From Gammaproteobacteria bacterium (GTDB lineage: Bacteria; Pseudomonadota; Gammaproteobacteria; Pseudomonadales; Azotimanducaceae), in assembly GCA_028824555.1 (NCBI GenBank), contig JAPPDJ010000073.1, positions 1-54,764 on the forward strand: a stretch of DNA of 54,764 nucleotides, written 5' to 3'. The translations under genes were made by a program, and so were the position numbers. Shown piece by piece: positions 12,140-53,567 of the stretch. Numbering within the stretch: the stretch's first letter is position 1; the number at the start of each line of letters is the position of its first letter. Under the pieces are notes generated by a model. The model saw nothing but the letters and a program-made list of their open reading frames with translations, did no database searches and was not told where the DNA came from.

Positions 12140-12230
12140 GTTCCTTTCCCCCGTGGGCCTCAATTGCCGGGCAAGATGGTAACGGTCCCTGTGGTGTTTC
12201 ACTTTGACTGGCACAGCACCTGGCGCGCCG

Positions 12231-12348
12231 CTCTGGAGGGAGGGCGTCTCGCCCTCCACCGCGCCCGCTAGGGCGCGCATCCTTCCGGGGCGCACGTGTT
12301 CTGCGCGCCTTGTGGCGCGATGGAGGGCGAGACGCCCTCCCTCCAGAG
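12231..12348. repeat. MITE-like inverted-repeat element (family B)
   Basis: Perfect 28-bp inverted arms (12231-12258 and 12321-12348) enclose about 62 bases. Each arm is itself a hairpin with GGAGGGCG/CGCCCTCC stems and a 3-base loop. A further small hairpin, CGCGCCC-GCTA-GGGCGCG, lies inside. A second element of the same family is at 53436-53567. It occupies the gap 12140-12458 between the SDR and the selenoprotein gene; apart from it I see only possible promoter sequence there. Confidence 0.85.
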
Positions 12349-12458
12349 GGGTGCCGGGAGCTAGTCGAACAGCTGGAAGGTCAACAGAGACCACCACAGT
12401 TCCCGCCCCATCGCTTCTGGTAGGCTCCGAGCCGTCAGCAACTCGCACAAGGCGGTAG

Positions 12459-12920
12459 ATGATGTTGGGACCCGGCGACGCCGCGCCCTCCTTTAAGCTC
12501 AGAAGTCATGCGGGGGAGACCATTTCCTCGGACGATCTCAAGGGCAGTTGGGTGGTGCTGCACACGTTTCCGTTTGCGTTCACCGGTGGGTGAAGCAACC
12601 AAACCTCCACTTTCAACCGTGCGTTGAAGCAGTTTCAGGAAGCAGGTGCCACGCTCCTCGGCATGAGCGTTGACACCACCTTCTCCCTCAATGCCTGGTC
12701 CACGGGGATGGGCGGCATTCGCCATCCGCTGTTGTCGGACTTCTGGCCCCACGGCGCGGTGGCTGAGGCCTTCGGCATCTTTGCGGACGGGCCGGGGATG
12801 GTGCAGCGAACGCTCATCATCATCGACCCGGACGGCGTGATTCGGCACAGCGAGGCGCACACCTCGACGCTACCGGATCCCGACGTTGCGCTCGGCAAGC
12901 TGGGCGAACTCAAGGGTTGA
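12459..12920 (+). CDS. selenocysteine-containing peroxiredoxin (AhpE-like), UGA at the peroxidatic position
   Basis: From ATG-ATG at 12459 the frame reads a peroxiredoxin: G-D-A-A-P-S-F-K-L, D-L-K-G-S-W-V-V-L-H-T-F-P-F-A-F-T-G-G, then UGA (12591-12593), then S-N-Q-T-S-T-F-N and an uninterrupted domain to 12920. If UGA is read as selenocysteine the product has 153 residues with Sec45. The UGA falls exactly where peroxiredoxins carry the peroxidatic Cys of the PxxxTxxC motif. The second half (P-L-L-S-D-F-W-P-H-G-A-V, then a conserved Arg before L-I-I-I-D) resembles mycobacterial AhpE, a 1-Cys peroxiredoxin. An in-frame TAG at 12456 fixes the 5' limit and AAGGCGG is the ribosome binding site. 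A SECIS-like hairpin follows. The gene overlaps the next PhyH gene by TTGA. Expected role: hydroperoxide reduction in the cytoplasm. Confidence 0.85.
12608..12632 (+). promoter_or_regulatory. candidate bacterial SECIS hairpin
   Basis: Starting about 15 bases after the UGA, the transcript can form UUCAAC-loop-GUUGAA (12612-12617 with 12623-12628), with loop CGUGC. The stem extends by a C-G pair around a bulged U (12611). The loop begins 24 bases after the UGA and has a G in its second position, followed by U. These are features required of bacterial SECIS elements bound by SelB. This is a manual fold, not a computed one. Confidence 0.6.
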
Positions 12921-13756
12921 ACACGACGGCGCGACAAGACGCCTATCCGGACCTCGGTCGGGACCTTCGCTTCTTCCCGCTCGGCGTGGAGGAACCGAAG
13001 GTTCTGACGCGGGCGGAGATCGACACCTACAACAAACGGGGCTACCTGTTCGGGTTCGATGTCTTCGACGAGGCCGAGATCGGCGAAATCCGTAGCTATT
13101 TCGACGGCCTCCTGGCGGATGCCCTCGCCAGCGGCTGGGGCAGCTACGAGATCACTAACTGGCACAAGACCTGCCGCGGCGTGTGGGACATCGTCACCCA
13201 TCCGAAGCTGGTGGCCTTCGCTGCCGACATGCTCGGCGAGACGGTGATCTGCCGCCATAGCCACTTCTTCTGCAAGCTGCCGGGGGACGGCAAGCGGGTG
13301 AGCTGGCATCAGGACGCTTCCTATTGGCCGCTGTCGCCGAGCCGAGTCGTCAGCATTTGGCTCGCCATCGACGACGCTACCGAAGCGAACGGCGCCATGC
13401 AGGTGATCCCCCGTTCGCACATCGATGCGCAGGTGCCGTTCTTCGATTCGGACGCGAGCGAGAACAACGTGCTCGGGCAGACGGTGCGGGATCCGGCGAG
13501 CCACGGCGACGCTCCGGTGTCGCTGGCGATGAAGGCGGGACAGATTTCGCTGCACAGCGACTGGCTCTTGCATTCCTCCGAGCCGAACCGTTCCGCCGAG
13601 CGACGCTGTGGACTGGCACTGCGCTACCTCAGCGCCGACGTGCGCGCCTTCAACGGCTGGAACGCCCACTCGGTCATCTGCCAAGGCAGCGACCCAAGCG
13701 GGCACTGGGCCAACCATCCCAGACCCGACGGGGAGACCATTCCGGCTCGGCCGTGA
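12917..13756 (+). CDS. phytanoyl-CoA dioxygenase (PhyH) family protein
   Basis: This 279-residue Fe(II)/2-oxoglutarate oxygenase has the metal triad in S-W-H-Q-D (HxD) and a distal His in S-D-W-L-L-H-S-S-E, with an R-R-C-G-L segment suited to 2-oxoglutarate binding. A TTG start overlaps the stop of the peroxiredoxin gene (TTGA), implying translational coupling. Substrate unknown; the pairing with a peroxidase could protect an oxygen-activating enzyme, which is inference. A hairpin array follows the stop. Confidence 0.85.
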   Translation: MNTTARQDAYPDLGRDLRFFPLGVEEPKVLTRAEIDTYNKRGYLFGFDVFDEAEIGEIRSYFDGLLADALASGWGSYEITNWHKTCRGVWDIVTHPKLVAFAADMLGETVICRHSHFFCKLPGDGKRVSWHQDASYWPLSPSRVVSIWLAIDDATEANGAMQVIPRSHIDAQVPFFDSDASENNVLGQTVRDPASHGDAPVSLAMKAGQISLHSDWLLHSSEPNRSAERRCGLALRYLSADVRAFNGWNAHSVICQGSDPSGHWANHPRPDGETIPARP

Positions 13757-13808
13757 CCCGCGCGCTGCTTGATGGCGGGTGTGGCGCGGGTGTAGGGTCG
13801 GGGCCAGC

Positions 13809-13890
13809 AGTTCGCGCCAGCGAACTACGGACGCGCCCGAAGGGTGCGCGGACGTGCCCGCAAGGGCACGCGGACGCACCGTAAGGCGCG
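13809..13890. repeat. array of four tandem hairpins (family A)
   Basis: Four short palindromes follow one another with 4-6 base spacers: stems AGTTCGC (loop GCCA), CGCGCCC (loop GAA, one G-U pair), CGTGCCC (loop GCAA) and CGCACC (loop GTAA, one mismatch). Stem sequences differ but pairing is kept. The array lies between two co-directional genes. Confidence 0.85.
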
Positions 13891-13925
13891 CCTGCACCGG
13901 GCAACCGCTTTCGGGGGAGGTGGTC

Positions 13926-53435: not shown

Positions 53436-53567
53436 TTTGGAGGGAGGGCGTCTCGCCCTCCGTAGTGCGCCGTCAGGCGCACTCTTCCTGAAGACGGCTC
53501 TGGTGCCGATCAAGTCGAAAAACGCGCCTGACGGTGCGTAGGGAGGGCGAGACGCCCTCCCTCCAAA
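53436..53567. repeat. MITE-like inverted-repeat element (family B), second copy
   Basis: Perfect 26-bp inverted arms (53436-53461 and 53542-53567) continue inward as imperfect arms with CGTCAGGCGC. Each arm is itself a hairpin with a GGAGGGCG stem. It is the same family as 12231-12348, and it occupies the gap before the nitronate monooxygenase gene. Confidence 0.87.

Follow-up and report, generated by a model that had tools for sequence, protein, structure and literature searches.

Positions 12459–12920 on the plus strand of the window (the whole 54,764-nucleotide stretch analyzed here, which is contig C145 of its own genome, G000; 4.2 Mb, 96% complete) very probably constitute a genuine selenoprotein gene. 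Sequence comparison predicts that it encodes an AhpE-type peroxiredoxin (one-Cys class) with UGA specifying the peroxidatic selenocysteine (Sec), a reading to which we assign a probability of roughly 0.93. This reading is based on several observations: the UGA is conserved, homologues with Cys align at the same position, selection acts to either side of the codon, a hairpin sequence is conserved, and genes for the Sec machinery are present. The features concerned are as follows.

12459–12920, plus strand: predicted gene for a Sec-containing AhpE-type peroxiredoxin (153 aa with Sec45; ATG start, TGA stop)
12591–12593, plus strand: in-frame UGA, predicted to encode selenocysteine 45, the peroxidatic residue (TGA in 15 of 15 aligned orthologues)
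12611–12629, plus strand: putative bacterial SECIS hairpin (stem 12611–12617/12623–12629, outer pair U-G; loop CGUGC, 12618–12622)
12917–13756, plus strand: PhyH-type Fe(II)/2-oxoglutarate dioxygenase (Pfam PhyH, 1.1e-30; TTG start overlapping the peroxiredoxin stop)

The frame 12459–12920 is open apart from a single internal TGA at residue 45 and closes with the terminal TGA at 12918–12920. Its read-through sequence, MMLGPGDAAPSFKL...VVLHTFPFAFTGG-U-SNQTSTFNRALKQF...ELKG, comprises 153 residues counting Sec45 and matches Pfam AhpC-TSA (PF00578) with an E value of 2e-31 over residues 5–130, a domain that spans the UGA; the 3′ fragment on its own scores 3.9e-14. The initial annotation had described AhpE-like sequence flanking one in-frame UGA, with the UGA at the T-x-x-C position. 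Both statements hold, in that the domain runs across the UGA and AhpE is the nearest solved family, and the context FPFAFTGG-U (T42-x-x-U45) places U45 opposite the Cys of ‘FTGIC’ in AhpE entries. The accompanying expectation that ordinary gene calling would return a truncated 3′ fragment only is confirmed by the standard ORF list, which contains for this frame nothing but a 98-aa TTG-started fragment (12624–12920). Because standard ORF calling truncates the predicted Sec-AhpE enzyme, these bacteria are likely to be credited with less defence against oxidative stress than they have.

Assignment to the AhpE type follows from the nearest solved sequences in the PDB. Six of the seven best are named Rv2238c/MT2298 (best 1.4e-22), which we take to be AhpE of Mycobacterium tuberculosis, and one is an ‘AhpC/TSA family protein’; a profile built from the 15 aligned orthologues retrieves the same seven at 122–125 bits, followed by TSA2 at 86 bits. 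M. tuberculosis AhpE (Rv2238c; PDB 1XXU, 1XVW, 4X0X), the nearest solved relative, is of similar length and belongs to the one-Cys class, but carries its peroxidatic Cys in FTGIC where the present gene has the predicted Sec45. The active-site Pro, Thr, and Arg of peroxiredoxins have catalytic roles; across the 15 rows P38 and T42 are invariant and R117 is nearly so. None of the NCBIfam models matches the protein above its cut-off. The score for NF040737, presumably representing PrxU of Eubacterium acidaminophilum, is 61.4 bits (cut-off 270), and that for the Prx-SUH thiol peroxidase model NF045827 is 32.1 bits (cut-off 298). PrxU likewise has Sec at the peroxidatic position but falls in a different subfamily, while Prx-SUH is a seleno-peroxiredoxin of the same fold class whose CxxU motif, as given in the consulted text of PMC13188914, is absent here. 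The same portion of that review states the role of the P-x-x-x-T-x-x-U motif in peroxidases. A second peroxiredoxin type, probably a second Sec/Cys peroxiredoxin, occurs in the same gammaproteobacterial family (L048 in G027, L037 in G025, and L049 in G036), where one genome has TGGU-TIEC and the other two have TGGC-TIEC.

Close copies of the gene (identity at least 59%) are present in 15 of 58 genomes, its own included, and each match has exactly one TGA. A contig scan of genomes yielded two loci, VXSY01000265.1 (Gammaproteobacteria SB0665_bin_27; gene sequence identical to the G014 locus) and VFHU01000021.1 (SAR202 cluster OSU_TB62, G425; 54% identity). In the resulting alignment of 15 orthologues (14 gammaproteobacterial, including the window, and one from SAR202; about 55–95% identical to the window protein), TGA stands at the same column throughout. 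Left out of this set were L035 (the G001 copy, in two frames), L051 (same gene sequence as L022), and L036, a 36% identical paralogue with its own TGA. L035 (G001:C230) retains TGA and hairpin, its gene being split into two frames and thus frameshifted or misassembled. L036 (G017:C33) is a divergent AhpE-like gene with TPN-U and another downstream stretch, probably a further Sec peroxiredoxin, and its place in the tree is unsure.

A wider profile search (loci L021–L143) gave 126 rows, of which 125 have a residue at the UGA column, the exception being a fragment of L035, and 108 are distinct. Among these 108 the aligned codon is TGA in 63, TGC in 31, and TGT in 14, with no other codon; at position 45 these homologues thus encode either Cys or TGA, as the initial annotation had suggested checking, and the TGA is carried by independent assemblies. 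Cysteine is lacking altogether from 13 of the 15 orthologue proteins, L023 and L024 having one Cys each. Mean pN/pS in the 15-row alignment is 0.203/0.669 upstream of the UGA and 0.224/0.660 downstream of the hairpin, and identity at codon positions 1/2/3 is 0.77/0.81/0.47 before the UGA and 0.72/0.82/0.46 after it, the third positions being the variable ones on both sides. Since both measures are alike on either side of the UGA, the two halves behave as one constrained protein.

The putative SECIS hairpin has a 6–7 bp stem, a loop beginning 24 nt past the UGA, and G as the second loop base. A 17-nt block within it (TTCAACCGTGCGTTGAA, 12612–12628) is identical in all 15 orthologues. Among the 49 invariant columns with degenerate amino acids in these 15 rows, only five use one codon throughout, and these five are adjacent, encoding F-N-R-A-L at +7 to +11, under the hairpin (placement probability 2.4e-5). 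The block occurs once in the 4.2-Mb assembly, and no further copy was found in that genome at up to 2 mismatches. We scanned the stretch 16–37 nt after the UGA for hairpins whose stem has 5 bp or more and whose first or second loop base is G, which are the limits of the bacterial SECIS consensus. All 13 gammaproteobacterial rows pass, compared with a mean of 5.2 and a maximum of 9 in 200 synonymous shuffles; the window’s own row, filed under L053 and outside those 13, passes too. Another 40 rows, namely L036, L048, and 38 SAR202-side rows, do not have the 17-nt motif; 22 of them pass, against a shuffle mean of 11.9 and maximum of 18 (200 shuffles); their hairpins differ in sequence and lie in the same scanned distance range. 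Eighteen of 62 distinct TGA rows fail the hairpin scan.

Predicted folding energy over the 50 nt after the UGA was not distinctive relative to shuffles in any of six sequences (z 0.44 to −0.63), and the minimum-energy fold of the window is not the SECIS hairpin, which is contained in the centroid fold. Covariation in the stem is weak within the 15 orthologues because six of seven pairs never vary (one does). The SECIS-like hairpin at the right distance proposed at the outset is upheld by geometry, the invariant 17 nt, and the shuffle scan, but its folding energy is unremarkable. Common to two phyla, the 17-nt hairpin may serve as a compact SECIS for probing the breadth of SelB recognition.

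The genome encodes the apparatus needed to decode such a signal. On contig C99, selA (516 bits, cut-off 268) adjoins selB (383 bits, cut-off 242) in the same direction, and the same contig carries a tRNA-Sec (67 bits, gathering score 47) for which ARAGORN reports the anticodon TCA, i.e. tRNA-Sec(UCA); selD (244 bits, cut-off 125) is on contig C88. Pfam recognizes SelB winged helix and SelA domains in proteins of this genome. All of selA, selB, selC, and selD, the search for which had been proposed initially, are thus present over their cut-offs in the genome that carries the gene. The neighbors of selA/selB (L082) include genes for a MOSC-domain protein and a sulfatase; tRNA-Sec is some 6 kb distant. 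Over the 58 genomes, selA exceeds its cut-off in 15 of 15 carriers of the gene (window included) versus 24 of 43 non-carriers, for which the hypergeometric probability of 8.4e-4 is a guide only, because the genomes are related. There is no separation in the SAR202 set, where selA is over the cut-off in 40 of 46 carriers and 25 of 32 non-carriers; the other six TGA carriers have no selA detected over the cut-off.

Directly downstream of the peroxiredoxin, the TTG start of the PhyH gene overlaps the TGA stop. The initial annotation had presented the gene as coupled to PhyH. The coupling is real in the window, and the TTG/TGA overlap is preserved in three relatives (G014, G006, and G007), but only four of 14 relatives have PhyH downstream, the fourth (G015) without the overlap; it was not found beside the gene in the 10 others examined. 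PhyH as a general partner is excluded by this count, and since it stands beside only four of 14 relatives we treat it as a local partner, outside the definition of the family. No shared neighbor was evident by Pfam among 10 ORFs near the gene at six PhyH-free loci, although four of these ORFs had no Pfam match and another turned out to contain the beginning of the peroxiredoxin. A promoter/terminator scan of 12140–13900 found nothing, and Rfam and tRNA scans of the window gave no matches. Just upstream of the gene is a 41-nt inverted repeat, 93% complementary (12225–12354; also at about 53443–53560), which is presumably a REP/BIME-like element. Its 19-nt core has four exact copies in the window, arranged as two inverted pairs (0.01 expected by chance).

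Several other readings of the locus must be weighed against a selenoprotein. That the TGA is an artefact of sequencing or assembly, or that the locus is a pseudogene with a newly arisen nonsense mutation, is suggested only by the standard code, in which a stop interrupts the gene. The probability of this is practically nil, given that the same TGA recurs in 14 further orthologues from separate genomes, another phylum included, and that purifying selection acts both upstream and downstream of it; the conserved TGA rules out assembly error and pseudogene alike. Were the UGA instead a functional stop, the locus would yield two products, a leader of 44 aa and a 98-aa protein with its own start, perhaps as a form of regulation, and a TTG-started 98-aa ORF does exist downstream. 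However, constraint is equally strong upstream and downstream of the UGA, the Pfam domain covers both parts, and the Cys homologues form one continuous chain. Moreover, the TTG at 12624 is a Leu codon within the invariant hairpin, and a start there would split the peroxiredoxin domain; we consider this arrangement highly improbable. An antisense gene was rejected in view of codon-position conservation, which fits the plus frame despite overlapping minus-strand ORFs.

It is also very improbable that read-through of the UGA inserts one of the standard amino acids, Cys or Trp, by near-cognate decoding. Sec at residue 45 is a prediction, which leaves room for such decoding, but the genome has a complete Sec machinery, the hairpin of SECIS geometry is under constraint at the nucleotide level, and Cys codons are the sole alternative in homologues. 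In addition, UGA apparently works as a stop, the gene itself ending in TGA and its orthologues in TGA, TAG, or TAA. This variation of the terminal codon, together with the Sec machinery, leaves general reassignment of UGA unsupported. A different question is whether a selenoprotein need be a peroxidase: the product could sense peroxide or act as a thiol:disulfide oxidoreductase, perhaps in the service of the PhyH dioxygenase. The peroxidase chemistry is likewise predicted, PhyH lies directly downstream in five genomes (window included) with start/stop overlap in four of the five, and the motif proline is replaced in many other SAR202-side homologues (HVFDFTGGU and the like). Nevertheless, P-x-x-x-T-x-x-U and the nearly invariant R117 in the 15 orthologues are peroxidase features, there is no CxxU/UxxC pair, and in 10 of 14 relatives no PhyH was detected next to the gene, such that we judge a non-peroxidase function unlikely.

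For the Sec-containing peroxiredoxin we infer how Sec is inserted, how peroxide is reduced, and what kind of reductant serves the enzyme as follows. On reaching UGA 45 the ribosome would encounter SelB-GTP-Sec-tRNA(Sec) bound to the hairpin that lies 24 nt further on, and Sec would be inserted at the UGA instead of termination. The Sec45 selenolate, which T42 and R117 would activate in the manner of other peroxiredoxins, would attack peroxide and be oxidized to a selenenic acid. With no internal bond possible, an external thiol or a glutaredoxin-like partner would reset the enzyme; an external reductant should be needed because there is no cysteine anywhere in the chain. In M. tuberculosis, mycothiol/mycoredoxin-1 resets AhpE, whose preferred substrates are peroxynitrite and fatty-acid hydroperoxides (both from the consulted part of PMC4360819). 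The protein described here is likely to be a one-Sec peroxidase that relies on an external thiol for its reduction, and for a gammaproteobacterium our guess would be a glutathione/glutaredoxin route.

The initial annotation had held that seleno-peroxiredoxins are known in a few bacteria. They are indeed known, but the accessible text of earlier reports shows the TxxU family to be established and common in marine data. Sec peroxiredoxins with TxxU (PF00578) are a listed selenoprotein family in the consulted text of two reviews (PMC9312934, PMC13188914), and the portions at hand of marine surveys report 253 Sec peroxiredoxin sequences in GOS (PMC2398784) and 43 in the Sargasso survey (PMC1088965). 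The Sec peroxiredoxin class itself is therefore not new. As described in those portions, the TxxU family shares with the present gene the AhpC-TSA domain, Sec at T-x-x-U, a UGA with a downstream hairpin, and widespread Cys homologues; the reports do not, in the same portions, resolve subfamilies, whereas the gene described here is of AhpE type and usually cysteine-free. The name ‘AhpE’ is absent from the main text of both reviews. A literature search pairing AhpE with selenocysteine gave no Sec AhpE in titles or abstract starts among the matches listed. Searches on SAR202 and selenium and on horizontal transfer in Chloroflexi returned little or nothing relevant among the matches listed, and one on sponge symbionts and selenium little beyond PMC5649159, again among the matches listed. 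Judged by sequence, what is new is a predicted AhpE-type member of a known TxxU selenoprotein kind, the survey sequences having been described without subfamily. Also new are the TGA copies around SAR202 OSU_TB62, their probable transfer into one gammaproteobacterial family, and the letter-for-letter hairpin in both, a putative SECIS whose degree of conservation is unusual.

A close TGA copy was seen in 15 of 37 genomes of the window’s family (window included), but the order’s 21 other genomes showed none. When 369 genomes of the class were searched, the window’s own genome alone exceeded 100 bits; a further 27 matches reached 1e-20 or better, with scores of 73–90 bits, and all are Cys forms; 398 genomes of the phylum added one further match at 1e-25 or better, with no internal stop. 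Among 78 genomes comprising SAR202 OSU_TB62 (G425) and chosen relatives, 46 have a TGA copy at 1e-30 or better. NCBI taxonomy places SAR202 within Chloroflexota, and the relatives of G425 are taken as Chloroflexota because they were drawn as its kin.

In a 107-row tree, from which 14 loci (duplicates and L035) and identical proteins were omitted, the 14 gammaproteobacterial rows form a single clade (99/96), nested in clades shared with SAR202-side rows (26 rows, 100/99; 29 rows, 100/96). Support is weak at the forks immediately surrounding the gammaproteobacterial clade (93/43, 95/47, and 91/52; SH-aLRT 43, 47, and 52). The 26-row clade includes 12 rows from the SAR202 side, eight of which have the identical 17-nt hairpin; among the SAR202-side rows fetched, no others have it. 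In a tree built from 18 selected SelA rows, the gammaproteobacterial and SAR202 sides fall apart (100/100). Two groups of Cys proteins, one from G462 and G495 and the other being the second G474 copy, are placed among Sec rows in the 107-row tree, the position that Sec-to-Cys replacements would give.

These relationships suggest that the gene was probably acquired, together with its SECIS, from SAR202-like Chloroflexota by a host already decoding Sec, a proposal of which we are less sure than of the selenoprotein itself. Forcing the 49 SAR202-side rows of the Sec clade together was 30.8 log units worse and was not rejected by the AU test (p-AU 0.056). Because this is not a rejection, the case for transfer is built on the bootstrap values, the distribution of the gene, and the hairpin common to both sides. 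More tentatively, and with the odds somewhat against the full scenario, a Sec-AhpE clade widespread in SAR202-type Chloroflexota may have passed a ready-made gene and SECIS to one gammaproteobacterial family, the recipient keeping its own SelA lineage and the hairpin remaining identical since. If so, the letter-identical hairpin in both phyla would mean that SelB-SECIS recognition is interchangeable between them.

The SB0665 bins presumably come from sponges. SelA/SelB are reported to be enriched in sponge-symbiont genomes of several phyla, with no client named in the section consulted (PMC5649159). Sec-AhpE is a candidate client for SelA/SelB of sponge symbionts and, if this link is correct, may be one reason why such symbionts retain Sec decoding. 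In three genomes of the SAR202 set a Sec peroxiredoxin adjoins a Cys peroxiredoxin, in tandem in G485 (L127) and G449 (L128) and on opposite strands in G474 (L124).
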